Shown in pieces: positions 7,491 to 59,850 of a stretch of 64,000 nucleotides of DNA. Each line of letters begins with the position of its first letter. The stretch's first letter is position 1. The translations under genes were made by a program, and so were the position numbers. The stretch covers positions 1 through 64,000 of the forward strand of contig JARCRQ010000093.1 of assembly GCA_029850585.1 (NCBI GenBank). The letters run 5' to 3'. The notes below the pieces were generated by a model that saw nothing but the letters and a program-made list of their open reading frames with translations, searched no databases and had not been told where the DNA came from. The stretch comes from Sideroxydans sp. GTDB lineage: Bacteria; Pseudomonadota; Gammaproteobacteria; Burkholderiales; Gallionellaceae.

Positions 7491-8876
7491 ATGAGCAACG
7501 AAAATAATTCTTTTGCGCAACTGCCTTTATCGCCTGCGATGTTGGCGAATTTGCAGCAGCTCGGCTATTTGACGATGACCCCGATACAGGCGGCGAGCCT
7601 GCCGATTACTTTGGCGGGCAACGATTTATTGGCGCAAGCCAAAACGGGTAGCGGCAAAACCGCCGCGTTCGCCTTGTCGTTGTTGACGCGCTTGAATCCC
7701 AAACATTTTGGCGTGCAAGCGATGGTGTTATGCCCCACCCGCGAACTTGCCGACCAAGTCACGCAAGAGCTGCGCCGTCTGGCACGCGCGGCGGACAATA
7801 TCAAAATTTTAACCTTGTGCGGCGGCTCGGTGATGCGCGCACAAATCGCCAGTTTGGAACACGGTGCGCACATCGTGGTGGGTACGCCGGGGCGTTTGAT
7901 GGATCACATCGAGCGCGGCACACTGAATTTAAGCGCGCTCAATACGCTGGTATTGGACGAGGCGGATCGTATGTTGGACATGGGTTTTTATGACGACATC
8001 GCCTACGTTGCCAAGCGTTGTCCTGCGGCACGTCAGACCTTGATGTTTTCCGCAACCTATCCCGACGGCATCGCGCGTTTGGCACGTCAATTTATGCACA
8101 ATCCGCAAGAAGTAAAATTGCTGGAGCAGCATGAGACAAGCAAAATCCGCCAACGCTTTTACAAGATAGACAACGAGCAACGCTTAGAAGCGGTTGCCAT
8201 TTTGCTCAAGCACTATCATCCCGTGAGTACGCTGGCGTTTTGCAACACCAAACAACAATGTCGTTCGCTGCTTGAAGCCCTCCATGCACAAGGCATCAAA
8301 GCCCTGACGCTGAATGGTGACTTGGAACAACGTGAACGCGACCAAGTGCTGATTCAATTTGCCAATCGCAGTTGCTCGGTGCTGGTGGCAACCGATGTCG
8401 CTGCGCGCGGGCTGGACATCACCCAACTCGAAGCCGTCATCAACGTCGATGTCACGCCCGACCCCGAAGTTCACATCCATCGCATTGGTCGTACCGGACG
8501 CGCCGATCAAGACGGTTGGGCATTGAGTTTATGCGGACCGACTGACCGCCATCGCATCATCACCATCGCGCAAATGATGCACATCGAACCCGCATGGCAT
8601 GAGCTGAACGAACTCGAAAGTAGCGACGACACCCCGCTCATCGCGCCTATGGTGACGCTGCAAATTTTGGGCGGACGCAAAGAAAAAATCCGCGCAGGGG
8701 ATGTATTAGGCGCACTCACTGGCGATGCGGGTTACACGCGCGAACAAATCGGCAAAATCAACGTCACCGAGTTTTCCACTTACGTTGCCGTGGCGAGAAA
8801 TATCGCCTTGGAAGCGGTGCGCAAACTCAATGCAGGGAAGGTGAAAGGCAAAACCGTTAAAGTGCGCGCGCTGTAA
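7491..8876 (+). CDS. dbpA: ATP-dependent RNA helicase DbpA
   Basis: AKTGSGKT, PTRELADQV, VLDEADRMLD, SAT, HRIGRTGR; C-terminal DbpA RNA-binding domain VTLQILGGRKEKIRAGDVLGALTGDAGYTREQIGKINV. Confidence 0.95.
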   Translation: MSNENNSFAQLPLSPAMLANLQQLGYLTMTPIQAASLPITLAGNDLLAQAKTGSGKTAAFALSLLTRLNPKHFGVQAMVLCPTRELADQVTQELRRLARAADNIKILTLCGGSVMRAQIASLEHGAHIVVGTPGRLMDHIERGTLNLSALNTLVLDEADRMLDMGFYDDIAYVAKRCPAARQTLMFSATYPDGIARLARQFMHNPQEVKLLEQHETSKIRQRFYKIDNEQRLEAVAILLKHYHPVSTLAFCNTKQQCRSLLEALHAQGIKALTLNGDLEQRERDQVLIQFANRSCSVLVATDVAARGLDITQLEAVINVDVTPDPEVHIHRIGRTGRADQDGWALSLCGPTDRHRIITIAQMMHIEPAWHELNELESSDDTPLIAPMVTLQILGGRKEKIRAGDVLGALTGDAGYTREQIGKINVTEFSTYVAVARNIALEAVRKLNAGKVKGKTVKVRAL

Positions 8877-8937
8877 TGCTCGCTAATGCAGTATAAAAAG
8901 CTGCTTTTCGATTGAACTGTACGAGTGTGCCGCGTAA

Positions 8938-9061
8938 AAATTTTGAGAGGCGGTTCATTCGGTTCTTCGACTGACTACGCATCTAACAAAATGTGGAAGT
9001 ACAACGAAAGTGTTGTGATTGCTTGCAAAAAATAATGCCTCTCGTAACACGCTGGATAAAA
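8938..9061 (+). pseudogene. Orphan 3' fragment of the lipoprotein gene (second copy at 10695-10817) plus first codons of the DUF4105-like gene
   Basis: ggttcattcggttcttcgactgactacgcatctaacaaaatgtggaagtacaacgaaagtgttgtgattgcttgcaaaaaataatgcctctcgtaacacgctggataaaa matches 10709-10818 with few substitutions. Confidence 0.9.
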
Positions 9062-9816: not shown

Positions 9817-10162
9817 GCCTAGCTTGGTCTCCAAAAAACGCATTATCACCATCGCGCAAATGATGCACATCGAACCCGAATGGCATGAGCTAAGTGAACT
9901 CGAAAGTAGCGACGACACCCCGCTCATCGCGCCTATGGTGACGCTGCAAATTTTGGGCGGACGCAAAGAAAAAATCCGCGCCGGTGACGTGCTGGGCGCA
10001 CTCACGGGTGACGCGGGTTACACGCGCGAACAAATCGGCAAAATCAACGTCACCGAGTTTTCCACTTACGTTGCCGTGGCGAGAAATATCGCCTTGGAAG
10101 CGGTGCGCAAACTCAATGCAGGGAAGGTCAAAGGCAAAACAGTTAAAGTGCGCGCGCTGTAA
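9815..10162 (+). CDS. Orphan DbpA C-terminal RNA-binding domain (duplicated 3' end of dbpA, intact ORF)
   Basis: Residues from RIITIAQMMHIEP to the end match DbpA with only 2 aa differences; nucleotide differences mostly synonymous. Confidence 0.85.
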   Translation: MPSLVSKKRIITIAQMMHIEPEWHELSELESSDDTPLIAPMVTLQILGGRKEKIRAGDVLGALTGDAGYTREQIGKINVTEFSTYVAVARNIALEAVRKLNAGKVKGKTVKVRAL

Positions 10163-10429: not shown

Positions 10430-10792
10430 ATGAAATTAGTTTATGTAAGTGCTATCGCTTTGACAGTTGCACTGTCAGGTTGCGCATCCATTTTGAACGA
10501 CAAAACGCAAGCAATTAACGTATCAAGCTCAACAGGCTCGGACATCCAAGGAACCGTTAACGGTATGCCCTTCAAAGCGCCTGGCGTCGTTTCAGTCATC
10601 CGTGAAAACAAGAACAAACTGTTCGTCACTGAAACCGAAGGCTGCACCAAAGAAACCATCGTTGAAAAATCCGTTGATCCAAAATTCTTCATCAACATTT
10701 TGAGCGGTGGTTCATTCGGTTCTTCGACCGACTACGCGTCTGACAAAATGTGGAAATACAACGAAAGCGTTGTGATTGCTTGCAAAAAATAA
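10430..10792 (+). CDS. Small lipoprotein
   Basis: Signal peptide and lipobox MKLVYVSAIALTVALSGCAS. Confidence 0.85.
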   Translation: MKLVYVSAIALTVALSGCASILNDKTQAINVSSSTGSDIQGTVNGMPFKAPGVVSVIRENKNKLFVTETEGCTKETIVEKSVDPKFFINILSGGSFGSSTDYASDKMWKYNESVVIACKK

Positions 10793-12642
10793 TGCCTCTC
10801 GTAACACGCTGGATAAAAAGCGGCTTCATTGCCGCTTTTTTATTGCTCTGTACTCACCCAGCTTTTGCCACACAAGCTGATGCCGACGCGCTTGTCGCGC
10901 AGCTCAATCTCAAGGCAACGCAACACCACCTTGCAAACTCATCGGTGTGGCAAGCCTTACTCCATGCCACGACCACACACAGCAACATTTCCGACCAAAA
11001 TTTCCTACTGAGCTTGCCCAGTTTTTCTTTAGCGGCGGAGCTGCAACACACTTTAGTTTTTCTATACTCAGGCGATACCAGCCATGTGTGCCGCTTTCCC
11101 GCGCGTTATGTGTGGCTACGTCAACAACTCGCTGCGCCTGAACTGCCACTAGATGATTGTCCTGATGTTATTGAGTTTCGTCGCAAAGCCCCGCTTGATG
11201 AAATAGCACTGGTATTTGCCAGCGAACGGATTGCTGAACCCGCCAGCATGTTGGGACATGCGTTTTTGAAATTGACAGGCAAGAATGCTGAAGGGTTATC
11301 TGTCAGCCATGCGATTACTTTTTACACAGATGCGAATACGTTGAATTTGCCTAAACTGCTGTTCGATAGCATGGTAATCGGCAAGCAAGGCTATTTCAGT
11401 CTCACGCCTTATGCCGAGCAACAGCAACGCTATGTAGATGAGGAACAACGCAATTTATGGGAATACACACTTGCGTTAAGTGGCGATCAAACCGAGCTGA
11501 TAGGTTTGCATTTATTGGAATTGAAGCAAACAAAGCTAACGTATTTTTTCCAAAAATATAATTGCGCGACGGTACTGAATTTCATCTTGGCGGTATCGGG
11601 TAAAAATATCGCGACACATGACTGGATATTAACGCCCAACGATTTAATTAAACACGCCCAGCACGCGGGGCTGATTAGCGAAACGCGCGTCATCACCCCG
11701 AGTCGCTGGTTGTTCTTAAACCTTTCCCAACAAGTTGGCGCGGCACAACGCGATGCTCTGATTAAGCAAGTCAAGCTAGGCACAGCAAGTGAATATATTG
11801 CGCAGCAAACAGGCGATTCCGCGTATCTCAATTTGGAATTGGCGCGCGCCTATAACCAATATGCTTACCTGACGCAACAGCTTGAGCAACAACGCTGGCA
11901 TGAAAATGAAGTCAGCCTAAGCAAGCTAAAACAGCAGCGGTTTGCAGCGTTGTCACTCAGCAACAATAACCGTTACGACCCCGTCAATACGCCCGCCGAT
12001 AGTCAGATAACGGTGAGTTCTCTGTACGACCATAATGGTGCGGCAATGAGCCTGACGCTTTTGCCTGTCTCGCATACTTTGCATGATGACAATCGCGCTT
12101 ATGCGAATGAATCCAGTCTGCAACTATTTGCGACCACGCTAAAGATTCCGACGCGTAGTCAGCAAATCGAGTTAGACCAACTTACTATTTTTGAGATGCA
12201 ATCTTTGCTGCCTTACGACGCAATCACAGGCGGCGCGGCGAGCCGTTTTCGACTGGCAATCGAGCCGCAAAAAGATCAGCAGTTGTTGCTACATCGCGTG
12301 TTTGCCATGAGCGGCGGCTACGGTCTGAGTCAAAGAGTGACGGACGATATAGATGCGTACGCATTGCTCGGTGGCGGCATTAGTTACACAAGTGCGCGGG
12401 GATTTTTTTATACGACGCTAGAGTCAGGCGCAATTATTCGTGAAGTGTGGGATATGAAAAGCGCGTTGCTGTTGACGCGTACCGACCGTCAATTTGCAGC
12501 CAACTCGCACTACTACACCGCCAATTTGAATCAAGCTAAGTTTCTAACGCCTGACACCAGCATCAGCTTTAGTTGGCAGCGCGACTTTAATCAAAGCCAA
12601 CAGCAACACCGTGTTGCGCTCTCGTTCAAGCAGCTGTTTTAA
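10792..12642 (+). CDS. DUF4105-like exported/membrane protein
   Basis: N-terminal signal sequence; ASMLGHAFLKL and YFFQKYNCATVLNF motifs; TAATG overlap with lipoprotein. Confidence 0.75.
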   Translation: MPLVTRWIKSGFIAAFLLLCTHPAFATQADADALVAQLNLKATQHHLANSSVWQALLHATTTHSNISDQNFLLSLPSFSLAAELQHTLVFLYSGDTSHVCRFPARYVWLRQQLAAPELPLDDCPDVIEFRRKAPLDEIALVFASERIAEPASMLGHAFLKLTGKNAEGLSVSHAITFYTDANTLNLPKLLFDSMVIGKQGYFSLTPYAEQQQRYVDEEQRNLWEYTLALSGDQTELIGLHLLELKQTKLTYFFQKYNCATVLNFILAVSGKNIATHDWILTPNDLIKHAQHAGLISETRVITPSRWLFLNLSQQVGAAQRDALIKQVKLGTASEYIAQQTGDSAYLNLELARAYNQYAYLTQQLEQQRWHENEVSLSKLKQQRFAALSLSNNNRYDPVNTPADSQITVSSLYDHNGAAMSLTLLPVSHTLHDDNRAYANESSLQLFATTLKIPTRSQQIELDQLTIFEMQSLLPYDAITGGAASRFRLAIEPQKDQQLLLHRVFAMSGGYGLSQRVTDDIDAYALLGGGISYTSARGFFYTTLESGAIIREVWDMKSALLLTRTDRQFAANSHYYTANLNQAKFLTPDTSISFSWQRDFNQSQQQHRVALSFKQLF

Positions 12643-17992: not shown

Positions 17993-18006
17993 GTTAGTCA
18001 TAATCT

Positions 18007-18038
18007 TGTGGGAGCTTGATTTATCAAGCTCCCACACA
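18007..18038. repeat. Perfect palindrome TGTGGGAGCTTGATTTATCAAGCTCCCACA (REP-like)
   Basis: Inverted repeat directly upstream of hisB SD; related sequences at 56812-56843 and 56880-56905. Confidence 0.85.
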
Positions 18039-18050
18039 CAGGAGAAAATT

Positions 18051-18638
18051 ATGCGTAGTGCAACCGTCACACGAAATACTTTAGAAACTCAAATCAGCGT
18101 CGCACTGAATTTGGATGGCACGGGCAAGGCTAAGTTTGATACGGGCTTGCCGTTTCTCGACCACATGCTCGACCAAATTGCGCGCCACGGTTTGCTCGAT
18201 TTTGACATCGTCGCAAAAGGCGATTTGCATATTGACGCGCATCACACCGTTGAAGACATCGGCATCACGCTAGGTCAGGCTTTTAATCAAGCGGTGGGCG
18301 ACAAAAGGGGCTTGCGTCGTTACGGTCACGCTTATGTGCCGCTCGATGAAGCCTTGTCGCGCGTGGTGTTGGATTTGTCGGGTCGTCCCGGTTTGGAATT
18401 TAATTGCGCGTTTGTGCGTGGCAGTATCGGCAATTTTGATGTGGATTTATTCCATGAATTTTTCCAAGGTTTCACCAATCACGCGCTGGTGACTTTGCAC
18501 ATCGACAATCTCGCAGGAAAAAATGCGCATCACCAAGCCGAAACTATCTTCAAAGCCTTCGGTCGCGCGCTGCGCATGGCGTTGGAACACGATCCGCGTA
18601 TGGCGGGCATGATGCCTTCAACTAAGGGTTCGTTATAA
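18051..18638 (+). CDS. hisB: Imidazoleglycerol-phosphate dehydratase
   Basis: [46 protein letters not shown]. Confidence 0.96.
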
Positions 18639-18640
18639 AA

Positions 18641-19342
18641 ATGATTGCAGTGGTTGATTACGGCATGGGTAATTTGCGCTCGGTGGAACAAGCCTTGCGC
18701 CATGTTGCACCCGATGCCAGCATTGTTGTGACTGATGATGCCAAGGTGATTGCTAACGCTTCACGCGTGGTGTTTCCGGGGCAGGGTGCGATGCCCGATT
18801 GTATGCGCGAGCTGGATAGTCGCAATTTGCGCGAGGCGGTGTTGCAAGCCGCGCGCAGCAAGCCTTTTTTAGGGATTTGTATCGGCTTGCAAATGCTGTT
18901 TGAGCATAGCGAAGAAGGCGATGTGGCGGGCTTGGGACTGTTGGCAGGTCGTGTGTCACGGTTCGCACATGGCTTGCAAGACGCGCAAGGCAATCGCCTC
19001 AAGGTGCCGCATATGGGTTGGAATCAAGTCCATCAGAAAAATCATCGCCTAGGCGATGGCTCGTTTGCTCTTTCCCCCGCAAGCGGGGGAAAGTTGGATA
19101 GAGGGATGTCGAACAGCCACGCGCTGTGGAACGGCATTGCGCAAGACGCGCGCTTTTATTATGTACACAGTTATTTTGTGCAGCCTGATGATGCGAGCTT
19201 GATACAAGCGACCAGTGATTACCCGCAGCCGTTTGTGTGTGCGGTGGCGCAAGAAAACTTATTTGCGGTGCAGTTTCATCCAGAAAAGAGCCATGCCGCT
19301 GGCTTGCAGTTGTTACAAAACTTTACTCAGTGGAATCCTTAA
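18641..19342 (+). CDS. hisH: Imidazole glycerol phosphate synthase subunit HisH, with an in-frame palindromic insertion
   Basis: VDYGMGNLRSVEQAL, PFLGICIGLQMLFE, VPHMGWNQVH, QFHPEKS; extra RLGDGSFALSPASGGKLDRGMSNS. Confidence 0.95.
   Translation: MIAVVDYGMGNLRSVEQALRHVAPDASIVVTDDAKVIANASRVVFPGQGAMPDCMRELDSRNLREAVLQAARSKPFLGICIGLQMLFEHSEEGDVAGLGLLAGRVSRFAHGLQDAQGNRLKVPHMGWNQVHQKNHRLGDGSFALSPASGGKLDRGMSNSHALWNGIAQDARFYYVHSYFVQPDDASLIQATSDYPQPFVCAVAQENLFAVQFHPEKSHAAGLQLLQNFTQWNP
19070..19093. repeat. Perfect palindrome ctttcccccgc-aa-gcgggggaaag inside hisH
   Basis: 11-bp arms read directly. Confidence 0.9.
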
Positions 19343-19352
19343 GGCTTGCCAT

Positions 19353-19471
19353 AAAATCGGAATTTCGTCGCGATGCGGTGTTGCTCACAAAAAATTATTC
19401 CTTACATATTAAAATATGCCGCGTCACAATTTTTTGTTCGCGCCTTGCCTAGCTTAGAAATTCCGATTTTA
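19353..19471. repeat. Intergenic palindromic element, copy R1 (hisH-hisA)
   Basis: Outer arms AAAATCGGAATTTC/GAAATTCCGATTTT; inner aaaaaatt...aattttttg; core shared with R2-R5. Confidence 0.88.
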
Positions 19472-19503
19472 AGAACTTTCTTTTAATTTTTAACTTTACG
19501 ACC

Positions 19504-20265
19504 ATGCTCATTATTCCTGCGATTGACTTAAAAGACGGTAACTGTGTGCGCCTCAAACAAGGCGAGATGGAAGGCGCGACAGTATTTTCAGACGACCCCG
19601 CCGCGATGGCGAAACATTGGTTGGCGCAAGGCGCGCGCCGTTTGCATCTGGTTGACTTAAACGGCGCGTTTGCGGGCAAACCCAAAAATGAAGCAGCGGT
19701 GCGCAGCATTGTCGCAGCCGTTGGACAAGATGTACCGGTACAACTCGGTGGCGGCATCCGCGATTTGGCGACCATCGAGCGTTATCTCGATTTGGGTATT
19801 ACTTACATTATTGTCGGCACGGCTGCGGTCAAAGTGCCAGGCTTTTTGCACGAAGCGTGCGATGCATTTCCGGGTCACATCATGGTCGGATTGGATGCCA
19901 AAGACGGCAAAGTCGCGGTGGATGGTTGGTCAAAACTGACTGGGCATGACGTGGGAGATTTGGCGAAACGCTTTGAAGACTACGGTGTGGAAGCGATTAT
20001 TTATACTGACATTGGCCGCGACGGCATGATGGGCGGCGTAAACATTCCGGCTACGGTTGAGTTGGCGCGCCCACTGCGCGTGCCAGTGATTGCCAGCGGC
20101 GGCGTGACTAATTTGGATGACGTGCGCGCCCTCGCAGCGGTCTATCAAGAAGGTATCACGGGTGTGATTACGGGTCGCGCGATTTACGAAGGCACGCTGG
20201 ATTTACGCGCCGCGCAAGCCTTGGCGGACGAACTTACGCCGATCAAACTTTCTACGCTGCGTTAA
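19504..20265 (+). CDS. hisA: Phosphoribosylformimino-5-aminoimidazole carboxamide ribotide isomerase
   Basis: [37 protein letters not shown]. Confidence 0.96.
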
Positions 20266-20267
20266 TC

Positions 20268-21026
20268 ATGCTGGCTAAACGTATCATTCCCTGTTTGGAC
20301 GTGACCGCTGGACGCGTGGTGAAAGGCGTGAGTTTTGTTTCGCTGCGCGACGCGGGTGACCCTGTCGAAATCGCCAAACGCTATGATGCGCAAGGCGCGG
20401 ACGAGCTGACTTTTTTGGACATCACCGCCAGCTCGGATGACCGAGGCATTATTTTTCGCATCATCGAGCAAGTCGCCTCGCAAGTGTTTATTCCGCTGAC
20501 GGTCGGCGGTGGCGTGCGCGAAGTGAATGACGTGCGCAATCTGCTCAACGCGGGTGCGGATAAAGTCAGCATGAACACGCAGGCGGTGGTCAATCCGCAA
20601 CTGGTTGCCGATGCCGCAGCGCGCTATGGTTCGCAATGTATTGTGGTGGCGATTGACGCAAAACAAGTCGCACCAAATCGTTGGGAAGTTTTTACCCACG
20701 GTGGTCGCAAGGCGACAGGTTTGGACGTAGTGGCATGGGCAAAAAATATGCAGGGCTTAGGCGCGGGCGAAATTTTGCTGACCAGCATGGACTGCGATGG
20801 ACAGAAAAAAGGCTTTGATTTAGCACTCACGCGCGCTGTCACCGACGCGTTAGAAATCCCCGTTATCGCCAGCGGTGGCGTAGGCAATTTGCAGCATTTA
20901 GCCGACGGCGTAAAACTGGGCGGCGCGGATGCGGTGTTGGCGGCGAGCATTTTTCACTTTGGTGAATACACCGTGCCACAAGCTAAGCGTTTCATGGCAG
21001 AACAAGGGATTGAGGTGCGGCTGTGA
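20268..21026 (+). CDS. hisF: Imidazole glycerol phosphate synthase subunit HisF
   Basis: [39 protein letters not shown]. Confidence 0.97.
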
Positions 21027-26490: not shown

Positions 26491-27870
26491 TTAGCTTTGC
26501 AGTTTTTTCAGCAGCTTGTCGTGTATCCCGCCAAACCCGCCGTTGCTCATCACCAAAATTTGATCGCCTGATTGCGCCACTGCGGCGATGGCGTTAATCA
26601 GTTCGTTTAAATCATCTTTGACCACGGCTTTTTCACCTAATGGCGCAAGTGCTTCGCGCGCATCCCAGCCTAGGTTTCCTGCGTAGCAAAACACCCAATC
26701 GGCATCCTTCAAGCTGGCGGGTAACGCAGCTTTCATCACGCCTAATTTCATCGTATTCGAGCGCGGTTCTAGCACCGCCAAAATGCGCGCCGCACCGACT
26801 TTTTTGCGCAGCCCCGCCACGGTGGTGTCAATTGCCGTGGGGTGATGGGCGAAGTCGTCATAAACGGTAATACCGTTCACCGTGCCTTTGATTTCCATGC
26901 GCCGTTTGACGTTTTTGAATTCGGCAAGCGCGGCGAGACCTTGCGCGACGGGTACGCCGACATGGCGCGCTGCGGATAAGGCGGCGAGGGCGTTCATGCG
27001 ATTGTGTTCGCCCATTAAGTCCCAGTGCAACGTGCCTTGCGCGATACCGTTTAAGCTGACTAAGTTTTCGTCGTTGATATTCCAGCCTGCGTTGCTAACT
27101 CCCTCGCCCTTTGGGAGAGGGTTGGGGTGAGGGTTGCCGAACAATTCCACAGGAGTCCAGTAACCGCGTTTTAATACGCGTTGCAACGAATCTTCGCGAC
27201 CGTTGCAAACCACTAAACCGTGATTTGGCACGGTGCGTACCAGATGATGAAACTGCGTTTCAATCGCATTCAAATCAGCAAAAATATCGGCGTGATCGAA
27301 TTCGAGATTATTCAAAATCGCCGTGCGCGGATGGTAGTGAACGAACTTGGAACGCTTGTCGAAAAATGCGGTGTCGTATTCGTCGGCTTCAATCACGAAA
27401 AACGGCGACTCGGTAATGCGTGCCGAGATACCAAAATTTTCTGGCACGCCGCCGATGAGAAAACCGGGCGTTAAGCCTGCGTATTCCAATATCCATGCCA
27501 GCATCGAAGTCGTGGTGGTTTTGCCGTGCGTCCCCGCCACGCCCAGCACCCATTTATCGCGCAGCAAATTGTCCGACAACCATTGCGGCCCAGACGCGTA
27601 AGGCAGATTGCGATTGAGAATTTCTTCCATCAGCGGATTGCCGCGCGTCACCACATTGCCGATGACATACACGTCCGCATTCAGCGCAAGTTGCTCCACA
27701 CCAAAGCCTTCGATGAGTTCGATTCCTTGCGCTTCAAGCTGCGTACTCATAGGCGGATAAACGTTGGCATCGCAGCCCGTCACGCGATAACCCGCTTGCT
27801 TGGCAATCGCCGCGATACCGCCCATAAACGTGCCGCAAATGCCGAGGATGTGGATGTGTTTGCTCATCAA
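26491..27870 (-). CDS. mpl: UDP-N-acetylmuramate:L-alanyl-gamma-D-glutamyl-meso-diaminopimelate ligase, with in-frame repeat insertion
   Basis: HILGICGTFMGGIAAIAKQAGYRVTGCDANVYPPMSTQLEAQGI; GTHGKTTTTSMLAWILE; insertion NPHPNPLPKGEGVSN. Confidence 0.95.
   Translation of the reverse strand: MMSKHIHILGICGTFMGGIAAIAKQAGYRVTGCDANVYPPMSTQLEAQGIELIEGFGVEQLALNADVYVIGNVVTRGNPLMEEILNRNLPYASGPQWLSDNLLRDKWVLGVAGTHGKTTTTSMLAWILEYAGLTPGFLIGGVPENFGISARITESPFFVIEADEYDTAFFDKRSKFVHYHPRTAILNNLEFDHADIFADLNAIETQFHHLVRTVPNHGLVVCNGREDSLQRVLKRGYWTPVELFGNPHPNPLPKGEGVSNAGWNINDENLVSLNGIAQGTLHWDLMGEHNRMNALAALSAARHVGVPVAQGLAALAEFKNVKRRMEIKGTVNGITVYDDFAHHPTAIDTTVAGLRKKVGAARILAVLEPRSNTMKLGVMKAALPASLKDADWVFCYAGNLGWDAREALAPLGEKAVVKDDLNELINAIAAVAQSGDQILVMSNGGFGGIHDKLLKKLQS
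27098..27135 (-). repeat. Repeat element encoding NPHPNPLPKGEG in frame within mpl
   Basis: actccctcgccctttgggagagggttggggtgagggttgcc; homologous to 59257-59301. Confidence 0.88.
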
Positions 27871-27906
27871 AAATGTACCGCGAAAATTTATGTTTTAAGG
27901 GGGGAG

Positions 27907-33833: not shown

Positions 33834-33871
33834 ATGATGCGCAGATTATATGCGCATTGTTTATGCGCATC
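33834..33871. promoter_or_regulatory. Candidate CcdA operator: three iterated ATGCGCA palindrome boxes
   Basis: gatgcgcagattatatgcgcattgtttatgcgcatca just upstream of ccdA. Confidence 0.6.
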
Positions 33872-33873
33872 AA

Positions 33874-34024
33874 TTAGCTGATTTTATCCATGCGCCGATA
33901 CTGCACAGCTTCGGCGATATGGCTGGTTTGCAGCTGTTCGCTGCCCGCCAAATCAGCGATGGTGCGGGCGACTTTGAGGATGCGGTGGTAGGCGCGAGCA
34001 GAAAGGTTGAGGCAGGCAATCTGG
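33874..34024 (-). pseudogene. Orphan 3' tail of comM (second, diverged copy)
   Basis: Encodes [45 protein letters not shown], versus the comM C-terminus. Confidence 0.93.
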
Positions 34025-35927: not shown

Positions 35928-36021
35928 GCAGAAATTCCGCCAAATAGTGTGGTTTTGTGTGGCTTATTATGGCTTAAATTTAATCGAAGTGCATTTTTAT
36001 TGCAGAAGATAGTGTATTCCA

Positions 36022-37518
36022 TTAGCCGCTTTTATCCATGCGCCGATACTGCACAGCTTCGGCGATATGGCTAATTTTCAGCTGTTCGCTGCCCGCCAAA
36101 TCAGCGATGCTGCGGGCGACTTTGAGGATGCGATGGTAGGCGCGCGCGGACAGGTTAAGGCGGGTAATCGCCTGCCGCAGCAAAGCCTCACCCGCCGCAT
36201 CAGGTGCGCAGTAGCGGTCGATCTCGGTGACGGAGAGCAGCGCGTTAGGTTTGTTTTGCCGCGCTAATTGGCGTTGTCGCGCGGCTTCGACACGCGCTTG
36301 TATGACCGCGCTGGTTTCGCCATCCGCCACCTTGAGCAAGTCGTCATGTGCTACGGCTGGCACTTCGATTTGAATGTCGATGCGATCTAGCAGCGGACCA
36401 GAAATTTTGCCGCGATAGCGCGATACCTGGTCGGGGGTGCAGCGGCACTTGCCGTTGTAGTGACCGAGATAGCCGCACGGGCAAGGGTTCATCGCGGCAA
36501 CGAGTTGAAACTGCGCTTTGAAATCGGCACGCCGTGCGGCGCGCGAAATGGTGATGCGCCCACTTTCCAAAGGCTCACGCAACACCTCCAACACATGCCT
36601 ATCGAATTCGGGCAGCTCGTCTAAAAATAACACACCGTTCATCGCGATTGAAATCTCGCCGGGACGCGGGTTGCTGCCGCCGCCCACCAGTGCTACGGCG
36701 GAGGCAGTGTGGTGCGGCGCACGGTAGGGGCGACGTTTCCAATTTGCAATGTTAAACATCCCGCCTAATGACTGCATCGCCGCACTTTCCAACGCTTCGG
36801 CTTGCGTCATCTGCGGCAAGATGCTGGGGAAGCGCGCCGCCAACATGGATTTTCCCGTACCAGGCGGCCCGCTCATCAACACCGAATGTCCGCCCGCCGC
36901 TGCGATTTCCAGCGCGCGTTTGGATTGCGTCTGCCCTTTTACTTCACGCATATCGGGGTAGTTCGGTGTAACGATTTGTGGTCTAGGAATATAGCGTTGC
37001 AGCAATTCGCGCCCCGCCAAATGTGCGGCGACTTGCAGCAAAGATTGCGCGGCATACACCACGGCATCCTCAACTAGTGCGGCTTCTGGTGCGTTCACAG
37101 CGGGTAACACAAAAGCGCGACCCGAATTGGCGGCGCAGTAAGTCATTGCCAGCGCGCCACGTATCGCGCGCAGTTCGCCAGTCAGGGCTAGCTCGCCCGC
37201 GTACTCATATTCGCCCAATTTGTCGCGGGGGATTTGCCCCGTTGCCGCCAAAATTCCCAGTGCAATGGGCAAATCAAAACGCCCACTTTCTTTGGGCAAA
37301 TCAGCGGGCGCGAGATTGACGGTGATGTGTCGCGCGGGGAATTCAAAGTTGCAATTTTGCAAGGCAGCGCGAACCCTGTCCTTGCTTTCTTTGACCTCGG
37401 TTTCGGGCAAGCCCACGATGGTGAAACTAGGCAGCCCATTGGCAAGATGCACCTCGACGGTGACCAGCTCCGCCTCCATGCCAGACAGTGCGCGGCTATA
37501 GAGGACGGCGAGGCTCAT
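36022..37518 (-). CDS. comM: YifB/ComM Mg-chelatase-like AAA ATPase
   Basis: FTIVGLPETEVKESKDRVRAAL, GPPGTGKSMLAARFPSILP, MNPCPCGYLGH. Confidence 0.96.
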   Translation of the reverse strand: MSLAVLYSRALSGMEAELVTVEVHLANGLPSFTIVGLPETEVKESKDRVRAALQNCNFEFPARHITVNLAPADLPKESGRFDLPIALGILAATGQIPRDKLGEYEYAGELALTGELRAIRGALAMTYCAANSGRAFVLPAVNAPEAALVEDAVVYAAQSLLQVAAHLAGRELLQRYIPRPQIVTPNYPDMREVKGQTQSKRALEIAAAGGHSVLMSGPPGTGKSMLAARFPSILPQMTQAEALESAAMQSLGGMFNIANWKRRPYRAPHHTASAVALVGGGSNPRPGEISIAMNGVLFLDELPEFDRHVLEVLREPLESGRITISRAARRADFKAQFQLVAAMNPCPCGYLGHYNGKCRCTPDQVSRYRGKISGPLLDRIDIQIEVPAVAHDDLLKVADGETSAVIQARVEAARQRQLARQNKPNALLSVTEIDRYCAPDAAGEALLRQAITRLNLSARAYHRILKVARSIADLAGSEQLKISHIAEAVQYRRMDKSG

Positions 37519-39187: not shown

Positions 39188-39354
39188 GGGCATCTCGCAA
39201 AACCCAAATTTCTTCGCGATGCGTTGTTGCTCACAAAAAATTACTCCTTACATAGCCATCTATCCCCAGCCAAAGCACCTGAGGACAAGTGCGTCGTCGT
39301 AATTTTTTGTTCGCGCCTAGCCTCACTTCGATATTTGAATTTTTCGAGACACCC
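39188..39354. repeat. Intergenic palindromic element, copy R2 (glnK-amtB)
   Basis: catctcgcaaaacccaaat / atttgaatttttcgagacacc arms; shares gatgcg.tgttgctcacaaaaaattactccttacata core; extra central sequence. Confidence 0.85.
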
Positions 39355-39391: not shown

Positions 39392-40897
39392 ATGTCAAAA
39401 CTCATTGCTTCAATGCTGTTACTGGCTGCTTTGTGCGGCTTGTCAGCGCCCGCTTTAGCGGAAGATGCCGCAGCGGCTAGTGCTACTGCAAGTGTGGCGG
39501 CGGTCGCTGATGCAGCTCCCGCTGTTGCAGCACCTGTTGCTGCCGACCCTGCTGCCGCAGCCGTTGTTGCCCCCGTGCCGAACAAAGGCGATACCACTTG
39601 GATGCTGGTCGCCACTTTGCTGATGATTATGATGTCAATTCCAGGCTTGGCGTTGTTCTACGGCGGCTTGGTGCGCAGCAAAAATATGCTGTCTATCCTC
39701 ATGCAAGTATTCAGCATCTTCGCGCTGATTATGGTGTTGTGGGCGATTTACGGTTACTCGCTGGCATTCACTACAGGCAACGCATTTATCGGCGGCTTTG
39801 ATAGATTGTTCCTGAAAGGCATTTTTGACCCCGTCACTGGCTCGGTTACCAATGCGGCAACCTTCAGCAAAGGCGTCGTGATTCCTGAGTTTGTGTTCGT
39901 AGCATTCCAAGCGACGTTCGCGGCGATTACCGTGGCGTTAACAGTCGGTGCTTTTGCCGAGCGTATGAAGTTTGGCGCGGTGTTGTTGTTCTCAGCGTTG
40001 TGGTTCACTTTCGCTTACTTGCCTATCGCGCACATGGTTTGGTTCTGGCAAGGTCCAGATGCTTACACCACTCAAGCGGCGGCTGACATTGCCAATTCGA
40101 CGGCAGGTTGGTTGTTCCAAAAAGGCGCGTTGGATTTTGCGGGCGGCACAGTGGTACACATCAATGCAGCGATTGCAGGTTTAGTCGGTGCATTCTTAAT
40201 CGGCAAACGCGTTGGCTTAGGCAAAGAAGCAATGGCTCCGCACAACCTCGTTATGACCATGATTGGTGCGTCATTGCTGTGGGTGGGCTGGTTCGGTTTC
40301 AACGCAGGTTCAGCATTAGAGGCAGGTGGCACAGCAACGTTGGCTTTCGCTAACACTTTGATTGCCACAGCCGCAGCGGTATTGACTTGGATGGCAGCGG
40401 AATGGCTGTTGAAAGGCAAGCCTAGCTTGTTGGGCGCAGCATCAGGTGCGGTAGCAGGCTTGGTCGCGATTACGCCTGCTTGCGGTTGGGTTGGTATCGG
40501 TGGCGGCTTAGTCATCGGCGCGCTGTCTGGTGTGGTGTGTTTCTGGGGCGTAACAGGCTTGAAGAAATTGCTCGGCGCAGATGATGCACTCGATGTATTC
40601 GGCATCCACGGCATCGGCGGTATCTTGGGCGCGTTGCTGACTGGCGTGTTCAACACTTGGAGTATGGGCGGCACCGGCATCGTTGATTATGTAAACAACA
40701 AAATCATCGACACCGAAATCGGCGCGCAAGTTTGGATACAAGCACAAGCGGTATTGACCACCCTAATTTGGTCAGGCGTGGTGGCATTTATCTGCTACAA
40801 ACTGGTGGATTGGACGATCGGTCTGCGCGTTACAGTTGAAGAAGAACGTGAAGGGCTGGACACTGCATCACACGGTGAACGTGCTTACAACCTCTAA
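39392..40897 (+). CDS. amtB: Ammonium transporter
   Basis: PGLALFYGGLVRSKN, VVHINAAIAGLVGA, DALDVFGIHGIGGILGALLTG. Confidence 0.96.
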   Translation: MSKLIASMLLLAALCGLSAPALAEDAAAASATASVAAVADAAPAVAAPVAADPAAAAVVAPVPNKGDTTWMLVATLLMIMMSIPGLALFYGGLVRSKNMLSILMQVFSIFALIMVLWAIYGYSLAFTTGNAFIGGFDRLFLKGIFDPVTGSVTNAATFSKGVVIPEFVFVAFQATFAAITVALTVGAFAERMKFGAVLLFSALWFTFAYLPIAHMVWFWQGPDAYTTQAAADIANSTAGWLFQKGALDFAGGTVVHINAAIAGLVGAFLIGKRVGLGKEAMAPHNLVMTMIGASLLWVGWFGFNAGSALEAGGTATLAFANTLIATAAAVLTWMAAEWLLKGKPSLLGAASGAVAGLVAITPACGWVGIGGGLVIGALSGVVCFWGVTGLKKLLGADDALDVFGIHGIGGILGALLTGVFNTWSMGGTGIVDYVNNKIIDTEIGAQVWIQAQAVLTTLIWSGVVAFICYKLVDWTIGLRVTVEEEREGLDTASHGERAYNL

Positions 40898-41019
40898 AAT
40901 TAAAATCTCATCGTGATGCGGCGTTGCTTACAAAAAATTACTCCTTACATAGTTTATCTATGCCGCGTCGCAATTTTTTGTTCGCGCCTAGCCTCACTTC
41001 GATATTTGAATTTTAATTT
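40896..41019. repeat. Intergenic palindromic element, copy R3 (after amtB)
   Basis: AAATTAAAAT/ATTTTAATTT arms; same core as R1. Confidence 0.87.
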
Positions 41020-56968: not shown

Positions 56969-57949
56969 ATGTCCCATTACCCACCGATTGTCGCTGCTCT
57001 CGTCACGCTGCTTGCGACCTTGTTACTCACCTTAAATAAAGACGGCACGATTAAAGATATTCCCAATGAACGTTCGCTGCACAGCACGCCAATTCCGCGC
57101 GTGGGCGGCATCGGCATCATGTTGGGCATCTTGGCGGGCTGGGCATTTTTGCTGGCTGATTTACGCGTGTGGTTGGTGTTGCCGATGTTGGGTTTGTTCG
57201 CTTTATCCATCGTCGATGACAAGCAGGGGCTGTCGGCAAAATCGCGTTTTATTGCGCATGTTATCGCGGCGATTGTGGTGCTGTTTGGACTAGGACTGGC
57301 GTGGTATTGGTGGCTGCCCGTGCTGCTCTACATGGTGTGGATGACCAATCTGTATAACTTTATGGACGGCTCGGACGGTTTGGCGGGCGGCATGGCGATG
57401 TTCGGTTTTACTGTGTACGGCTTTGCCGCGCTGCAACATGGCGGCGCGGATGCCGAAGTGTTTGCCATGCTGTGTTTCGCCATTGGCGCGGCGGCTTTGG
57501 GATTTTTGTATCACAACTTTTATCCCGCCACGGTATTTATGGGCGATGCGGGTTCGATACCGCTAGGCTTTCTCGCCGCCAGTTTGGGCGTGTGGGGTTG
57601 GCAACAAAATTTCTGGTCGTTGTGGTTTCCGCTGCTGGTGTTTTCGCCGTTCGTGATGGATGCGACGGCGACTTTGTTGCTGCGTTTACGCCGTGGCGAA
57701 AAACTCACTCAAGCGCATCGCAGCCATTATTATCAACGCTTAATTTTGAGCGGCTTTGGGCATCAAGCCACGGCGATTTTGGAATATGTGTTGATGGCGT
57801 TGGTCGGCATTTCAGCCGTGTGGGGCATCACGCAACCACTCGCCGCGCAAGCTAATTTATTGGCTTTTTGGGCGGCAATTTATCTTGCCTTGTCGATGTG
57901 GATAGATAAACGCTGGCGCAATTTTTGTGCCGCACAGGAGCCAAAATAA
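56969..57949 (+). CDS. WecA/MraY-family glycosyl-1-phosphate transferase
   Basis: NERSLHSTPIPRVGGIGI...TNLYNFMDGSDGLAGG...GDAGSIPLGF. Confidence 0.93.
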   Translation: MSHYPPIVAALVTLLATLLLTLNKDGTIKDIPNERSLHSTPIPRVGGIGIMLGILAGWAFLLADLRVWLVLPMLGLFALSIVDDKQGLSAKSRFIAHVIAAIVVLFGLGLAWYWWLPVLLYMVWMTNLYNFMDGSDGLAGGMAMFGFTVYGFAALQHGGADAEVFAMLCFAIGAAALGFLYHNFYPATVFMGDAGSIPLGFLAASLGVWGWQQNFWSLWFPLLVFSPFVMDATATLLLRLRRGEKLTQAHRSHYYQRLILSGFGHQATAILEYVLMALVGISAVWGITQPLAAQANLLAFWAAIYLALSMWIDKRWRNFCAAQEPK

Positions 57950-59850
57950 TGTTACGCAAATCGAATACGCGCACCGTGCTTGCCATGTTGCACGACAGCA
58001 CCGCTGCCTTATTAGCTTGGAGTTTGGCTTACGCGCTGCGCTTTAATTTTGAACTCCCCGTCAATTTTTTAACTGAGTTCAAGCAAACCGTTTTGTGGGT
58101 GATGCTGTTACAGCTCGCTGTGTTTTGGCGCATGGGTTTGTATCGCGGCATTTGGCGCTACGCCAGCGTGCCCGACTTGAAGCGTATCGTCCTCGCAGTG
58201 CTGGTTGCCGCAGCACTCATTCCTGTTGCGTTATTGATGCTGCGCATCAATTTGGTCGTGCCGCGCTCGGTGCTGATTTTGAATCCCTTGCTGTTGATGT
58301 TGCTGATGGGCGGCAGCCGTCTGATGTATCGCTCTTGGAAAGAAACGCGCTTGCACGGCAAGCTCAAACTCGCCTCTGAACCTGTGCTAATACTCGGCGC
58401 GGGCGATGCCGCGATTCATTTGGCTAAAGACTTGGTGAAGAATCCCGCTTGGCAATTAGTCGGCTTTTTAGATGACGATGACAACAAACAAAATTGCGTG
58501 TTGCATGGCATTAAAGTGCTGGGCAAGTTGGATGATTTGGATAAATGGGCAACGCATTTCTCGGTGGACAAAGTCATTCTTGCCATGCCCTCTAGTTCAC
58601 ATCAACAACGCAAACGGGCGATTCAACTTTGCCAAGCGGCAGGCGTGGAAGCCTTATCGGTGCCGTCATTTGACGACTTGATGTCAGGCAAAGTCGGCGT
58701 GACGCAACTGCGCGCCATTGAGCTAGACGACTTATTAGGACGCGATCCAGTATGCCTAGACAAAGCGGGCTTGCAAAAATTATTGTCCGACAAAGTCGCC
58801 TTAGTCACTGGCGCGGGCGGCTCAATCGGCTCGGAGCTGTGCCGCCAAATCGCGCTGTACGCACCAAGCAAACTGGTGCTGTTTGAGCAAAATGAATTCG
58901 CGCTGTACAGCTTGGAGCAAGAGCTTAAACAAACTTTCCCGCAGCTTAATTTTTTGTGCATCGTCGGTGATGTACGCGATGCCGCACGCGTCAATGAAGT
59001 ATTTGCCGCGCAAGCTCCTGCTACGGTGTTTCATGCCGCCGCCTACAAACATGTGCCGATGATGGAGCAGCACAACGCTTGGCAAGCCATCCGCAACAAC
59101 GTGCTCGGCACTTACACCGTAGCGCGCGCCGCGCTTGATCATGGCGTCGCAAAATTTGTCTTGGTGTCCACCGACAAAGCCGTCAATCCAACCAATGTGA
59201 TGGGTGCGTCGAAACGCTTGGCAGAGCTGGTGTGTCAAGCGTTGCAACCTGCACCAAACCCTCATCTCAATCCTCTCCCGCAAGCGGGCGAGGAGGCAAA
59301 CGCAAACAGCCTTTCTAAACCCTTAACCCGCTTCGTGATGGTGCGCTTTGGTAATGTGCTAGGCAGCACGGGCAGCGTAATTCCTAAGTTCCGCGCACAG
59401 ATTGCAGCGGGCGGACCGATTACCGTGACGCATCCCGACATCACGCGCTTTTTCATGTCGATTCCTGAAGCCGCGCAACTGGTTTTGCAAGCGGGGCTAA
59501 TGGGACAAGGCGGCGAAATTTTTGTCTTGGACATGGGCGAGCCAGTCAAAATTGTGGATTTGGCAAAAGAGCTGATTCGACTTTCTGGCATGAATGAAGA
59601 CGACATCAAAATCGAATTCAGCGGCTTGCGTCCTGGCGAAAAACTCTTTGAGGAATTACTCGCCGATGATGAAAATACTCTGCCCACGCCGCATCCAAAA
59701 TTATTTATCGCGCAAGCGGTGCAATGTGATGCCGCATGGTTGGAACGCTTGTTGCTGTGGGCGGCGGCAACGACTAAGCCTGATGCCGAAGTGCGCCAAG
59801 ATTTAACCGGCTGGCTGCCTGAATACCAACCGTTCAAGGAAAATGTTTAG
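57949..59850 (+). CDS. CapD/WbpM-like polysaccharide biosynthesis nucleotide-sugar epimerase/dehydratase, with in-frame repeat insertion
   Basis: TGAGGSIGSELCRQIALYAPSKLVLFEQNEFALYSLEQEL...YKHVPMMEQH...STDKAVNPTNVMGASKR. Confidence 0.94.
   Translation: MLRKSNTRTVLAMLHDSTAALLAWSLAYALRFNFELPVNFLTEFKQTVLWVMLLQLAVFWRMGLYRGIWRYASVPDLKRIVLAVLVAAALIPVALLMLRINLVVPRSVLILNPLLLMLLMGGSRLMYRSWKETRLHGKLKLASEPVLILGAGDAAIHLAKDLVKNPAWQLVGFLDDDDNKQNCVLHGIKVLGKLDDLDKWATHFSVDKVILAMPSSSHQQRKRAIQLCQAAGVEALSVPSFDDLMSGKVGVTQLRAIELDDLLGRDPVCLDKAGLQKLLSDKVALVTGAGGSIGSELCRQIALYAPSKLVLFEQNEFALYSLEQELKQTFPQLNFLCIVGDVRDAARVNEVFAAQAPATVFHAAAYKHVPMMEQHNAWQAIRNNVLGTYTVARAALDHGVAKFVLVSTDKAVNPTNVMGASKRLAELVCQALQPAPNPHLNPLPQAGEEANANSLSKPLTRFVMVRFGNVLGSTGSVIPKFRAQIAAGGPITVTHPDITRFFMSIPEAAQLVLQAGLMGQGGEIFVLDMGEPVKIVDLAKELIRLSGMNEDDIKIEFSGLRPGEKLFEELLADDENTLPTPHPKLFIAQAVQCDAAWLERLLLWAAATTKPDAEVRQDLTGWLPEYQPFKENV
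59257..59301 (+). repeat. Repeat element encoding NPHLNPLPQAGEE in frame
   Basis: aaccctcatctcaatcctctcccgcaagcgggcgaggaggcaaac; homologous to the mpl element. Confidence 0.87.

Follow-up and report, generated by a model that had tools for sequence, protein, structure and literature searches.

The intrastrand triplex motif TM_ECO of E. coli, formerly known as BoxC or PIT, has the consensus CCCTCNCCC-N3-6-GGGNGAGGG-N3-GGGNGAGGG, and its copies in E. coli are always intergenic (PMC4666352). Rickettsia palindromic elements (RPE), which are 105-146 bp long and specific to Rickettsia, are selfish palindromes that occur as in-frame fusions within conserved protein genes; guanylate kinase tolerates one such element (PMC2229807). 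In the available part of a third study, REPs tagged with GTAG or CGTC were placed within ORFs of several species, with repair and tRNA-related genes frequently affected, and recB of two Xanthomonas species was hit by REPs at about one site; recurrence at one loop across many species of a genus is not described in that part of the study (PMC3733652).

The window analysed here, a stretch of 64,000 nucleotides from the draft genome of Sideroxydans sp., carries the gene order hisB-hisH-hisA-hisF (Table 1). The hisH product was matched by the TIGR01855 HisH profile at 1e-59 and retained the catalytic motifs GICIGLQ and QFHPEKS; the best PDB match of its AlphaFold model was the HisH structure 4gud, and other solved HisH structures also matched. 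A sequence-only reading of this DNA had proposed a palindromic insertion within the hisH coding sequence. Comparison with relatives confirmed that the insertion was real, since the loop from GWNQV to RFYYVHS was 40 aa long in the window and 17 aa long in the nearest insert-free relatives. The resulting 23 extra residues were close to the original estimate of about 22, with the outer flanks (QKN and MSNS) assigned with less certainty. The insert had been said to start at 19052; that position does lie within it, but hairpin 1 already begins just upstream. As had also been claimed, the reading frame of this biosynthetic enzyme was preserved, with an intact ORF and an element equal to a whole number of codons.

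Table 1. Positions of the hisH insert, its component parts, the surrounding operon and two further motif copies in the window.
Feature	Position	Strand	Remarks
hisB	18006-18638	+	operon context
hisH (imidazole glycerol phosphate synthase glutaminase subunit)	18641-19342	+	intact ORF, 233 aa
Inserted two-hairpin element	19043-19105	+	63 bp = 21 codons (135-155), HRLGDGSFALSPASGGKLDRG; by comparison with insert-free congeners, hairpins folded
Hairpin 1	19043-19058	.	CATCGCCTAGGCGATG, exactly perfect 16-bp palindrome
Spacer	19059-19069	+	GCTCGTTTGCT, between hairpins 1 and 2
Hairpin 2	19070-19093	.	CTTTCCCCCGCAAGCGGGGGAAAG, inverted repeat, perfect 11-bp arms around central AA
Linker	19094-19096		TTG, between hairpin 2 and purine tail
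Purine tail	19097-19105	+	GATAGAGGG, possible third strand
hisA	19504-20265	+	operon context
hisF	20268-21026	+	operon context
Motif copy in mpl (murein tripeptide ligase)	27113-27133	+	gene on - strand, open frame 26494-27894
Motif copy in capD-like nucleotide-sugar dehydratase open frame	59259-59279	-	frame on + strand, 57910-59847

Several other repeats were observed in the window. The hisH-hisA spacer contained a repeat of approximately 118 bp (19353-19470), further copies of which were found at 39199-39343 and 40896-41014; it had imperfect terminal inverted repeats (AAAATCGGAATTTC...GAAATTCCGATTTT) and looks MITE-like. Long direct repeats were present at 8553-8852 and 9839-10138 and at 8937-9061 and 10694-10818 (94-95% identity, a few kb apart), and a direct repeat of 152 nt with 91% identity was present at 33870-34021 and 36018-36169.

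The element within hisH was bipartite. The earlier description of a perfect palindrome was accurate for hairpin 1 but not for hairpin 2, the arms of which are perfect on either side of a central AA. When the window was dinucleotide-shuffled 100 times, the 24-mer that forms hairpin 2 was never matched and therefore is not expected by chance, and the region of the element folded at z = -3.3 as single-stranded DNA. Hairpin 2 holds the pyrimidine arm CTTTCCCCC and the purine arm GGGGGAAAG of a triplex-type motif, and the purine tail mirrored this arm at 8 of 9 positions when T over A was allowed. The CGTTTG/GTTTGC portion of the spacer was common to many other copies of the element.

These segments occurred in the published order and spacing of BoxC/PIT/TM, namely a pyrimidine arm, a short loop, a purine arm, a 3-nt linker and a purine third strand. 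In this genome the typical copies (CCCTCGCCC-GCTTGC-GGGAGAGGG-TTG-GGGTGAGGG), which are dispersed, agreed with the consensus except at one arm position; the window copy is a diverged subtype (CTTTCCCCC/GGGGGAAAG/GATAGAGGG) in which the layout agreed and all three segments carried substitutions. In contrast to the E. coli copies, those found here were mostly within genes and in frame, and a second hairpin usually preceded the motif. The intergenic location reported for E. coli did not hold here (26 of 32 copies were internal to open frames); location is regarded as characterising the copies of E. coli and as lying outside the sequence definition of the family.

A tail serving as third strand is expected to be a mirror of the purine arm and not its repeat. 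The 51 distinct copies gave 18 arm/tail types, which were treated as independent, ignoring the kinship of copies; on that basis the mirror score was 8.44 of 9, compared to a maximum of 8.0 in 2000 shuffles. Among the 13 asymmetric types the mirror match exceeded the direct repeat in 11, and the reverse was seen in none. This symmetry is suggestive of, but does not prove, an antiparallel purine-motif triplex, and the covariation suggests that a triplex-compatible sequence has been kept or copied. Judged by its layout and mirror symmetry, the element is a member of the BoxC/PIT/TM family.

Membership of RPE and of the GTAG/CGTC-tagged REPs was considered and rejected. Like RPE, the element is inserted in frame within conserved protein genes; unlike RPE, it is found in a betaproteobacterium and is a bipartite element of 63 bp, outside the range of 105-146 bp (PMC2229807), with a presumably unrelated sequence. 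It works like RPE but was assigned to a different family. It shares with the tagged REPs, as far as the available part of that study describes them (PMC3733652), the presence of palindromes inside genes. However, the GTAG/CGTC tag was absent at the ends of 19043-19105 and no tag recurred at the ends of the copies read. No mobilising enzyme could be linked to the element: the sole Y1-transposase match in the genome (C30, 66461-66790) had no element copy within the surrounding 4.5 kb. An Rfam search of 18000-20500 gave no RNA family match up to E = 1.

A search of the genome for the palindrome, as had been proposed, revealed that the second half of the insert is one of 32 copies of a dispersed element. 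Counts in these draft genome pieces varied with the search pattern: one pattern gave 22 copies and a looser one 37 matches, and 33 distinct sites were read, from which one false match was removed. A reversed-pattern control gave no matches in the same genome at stricter settings. The second hairpin and a GTTTG-type spacer preceded the motif in many of these copies. Across the genus, the pattern search detected the motif in 55 of 61 genomes, with 1,791 matches in total.

Copies were scored as internal when the open frame was at least 150 aa long and extended 40 aa or more to either side of the copy; 26 of the 32 qualified. The genes concerned were mostly conserved and included lysA, murC, mpl, ileS, pheT, priA, uvrD, waaA and an rlmN-like gene. 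Curated profiles spanned the insert in LysA, MurC, Mpl, WaaA, the RlmN-like protein, SDR, CobC, IleS, PriA and PcrA/UvrD and flanked it on either side in AddA, AmgK, RecX and PheT; some host frames (for example, L175 and L187) had no family match, and placement in a known gene is therefore not proven for every copy. As a rough comparison only, the same open-frame criterion placed 13 of 29 copies inside frames in the relative G010, where many copies lay close to ORF ends and stop-to-stop frames overcount.

Relative to the gene, 23 internal copies were antisense and three were sense. In antisense the element had no stops in any of the three frames, all of which were used (PSPQPSP, PHLNPLPQ and TLSPTLSRK), whereas in each sense version one or two of the frames were closed by a stop; the antisense excess is consistent with this difference. 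The strand and frame pattern fits chance insertion followed by a filter for frame and stops, although targeting also is compatible with it. Since all three antisense frames were used, the encoded peptide is probably incidental.

To place the hisH insert among its relatives, loop sequences were taken from 73 rows for the genus, corresponding to 71 genomes (G021 and G026 were fetched twice; L033, from another family, was omitted). The loop had 15-19 residues in 58 genomes and comprised 33-62 residues containing palindromes in the other 13. Non-repetitive loops of equal length, which would have spoken against an insertion, were not common. In a wider betaproteobacterial set the loop had 15-17 residues in 64 of 68 sequences; two of the four exceptions (L057 and L058) repeat the palindromic-insert loops of the congeners L205 and L206, and the others had 21 and 26 residues. 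The dispersed family, the second hairpin and the recurrence of insertions at the hisH site in other species all go beyond the sequence-only reading. An assembly or binning artefact might be suspected in a draft genome of 101 contigs. This is scarcely credible, as equivalent inserts occurred in separate congeneric genomes, including the low-contig G029 and G062, and the hisB-hisH-hisA region of the window fell firmly within the genus tree.

Of the 13 HisH inserts, ten had the orientation of the window and two were reversed (L030 and L206); the remaining one, in L031, was a perfect palindrome of 46 bp unrelated to the element. When presence of the insert was mapped on a tree of hisB-hisH-hisA with the insert columns removed, a minimum of 12 changes was required, whereas label shuffling gave a mean of 12.2, and presence therefore showed no phylogenetic signal. 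Clean empty sites were found by comparing close relatives of which one carries the insert and the other lacks it (L206/L263 and L204/L043); in the first pair, 81 nt were inserted between GTTGGCC and ATTCCTTG. No clear target-site duplication was seen at the inserts.

A single old HisH insertion that was inherited and repeatedly lost, or was moved between species by recombination of hisH, would account for the predominance of one orientation. It also would account for five inserts in that orientation (L029, L032, L205, L207 and L248) that had a similar hairpin 1, a type for which no exact match was found elsewhere in their genomes; some of these five may share an origin, either by descent or because hisH was exchanged laterally. 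As a general explanation it is nevertheless rather unlikely. The two reversed inserts and the unrelated palindrome need separate insertions, the insert-free sisters, even very close ones, had unscarred loops of 15-17 aa, and the distribution on the tree was as scattered as that of random labels. The sequences by themselves require at least four separate HisH insertions, and repeated insertion is the more probable account.

A second palindromic element, GATGGAACNACTAGCCATTCGACTA...CAAGTCGCTGGTTATC, was observed nested within the triplex-type hairpin in HisH (L207 and L248), in MurC (L321 and L323) and at other loci of relatives. It seems also to sit within other palindromes elsewhere; no copy was observed in the window.

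Recurrence was not confined to HisH. One MurC loop had 16 residues when insert-free, and inserts were present in 18 of 30 retrieved loci, a set biased to inserts because the query itself carries one; 12 of these 18 matched the motif in antisense. When insert-free genomes were included, some of them scored from a gap in the search rows rather than from sequence, inserts were present in 15 of 48 and required 10 changes on the tree. The MurC loop of L330 and L331 contained a different insert, GAGAAGGGTGG...CCCTTCCCCCTTCCC, and this loop therefore also accepts unrelated elements. In its recurrence, the MurC loop behaves like the HisH loop. An active mobile element directed to particular loops or sites, with the HisH and MurC loops as true hot spots and the triplex or hairpin perhaps helping movement, is compatible with the strand and frame pattern but appears distinctly improbable; a selective filter would be the favoured reading over targeting.

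With regard to the protein, the structure was modelled, as had been proposed. AlphaFold kept the HisH core with confidence (mean pLDDT of 91.3), and residues 138-143 and 145-155 had values below 50, which fits disorder but also is expected where few aligned sequences cover an insert. The prediction is thus of a disordered loop, with the HisH fold unaffected; a folded extra domain was rejected. The absence of predicted structure in the insert weighs against the loop being an adaptive part of HisH, such as a regulatory or interaction segment, with the palindrome incidental. That the frame was always kept and that the HisH site was used repeatedly would agree with such a role, but the peptides varied in sequence, element orientation and length (loops of 33-62 aa), most species had no insert, and the same DNA encoded unrelated peptides in three frames of other genes; an adaptive loop is accordingly considered very unlikely.

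It also was considered whether the element is left untranslated, through ribosome bypass of the hairpin or its removal from the mRNA. A strong hairpin lies within the gene, and palindromic elements with translational bypassing are reported from yeast mitochondria (cited in PMC6649704). However, the HisH and MurC inserts that were read were in frame and stop-free, neither of which bypass or removal would need, and the antisense bias agreed with the stop-free frames. This explanation is extremely unlikely, and the insert is presumably translated.

Taken as a whole, the 23 extra residues of HisH very probably represent a tolerated copy of a non-autonomous, selfish BoxC/PIT/TM palindrome in a permissive loop of hisH. 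The copy is inserted in the stretch bounded by the HxLW segment and the strand that follows the PHMGWN motif. Its retention would be explained by a length divisible by three, the absence of a stop in the frame through it and the permissiveness of the surface loop. The element would then be translated as a disordered loop beside an intact enzyme core, at nearly neutral cost.

Until now BoxC/PIT sequences were regarded as repeats of intergenic regions, with neither mobility nor an origin known for them. In this genus, with dozens of sequenced species, BoxC/PIT/TM elements enter genes in frame, occupy the same loops and have left recent empty-site pairs, so that their mobility, target choice and protein cost become directly testable. 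The inserts also constitute a natural record of protein loops that tolerate insertion.
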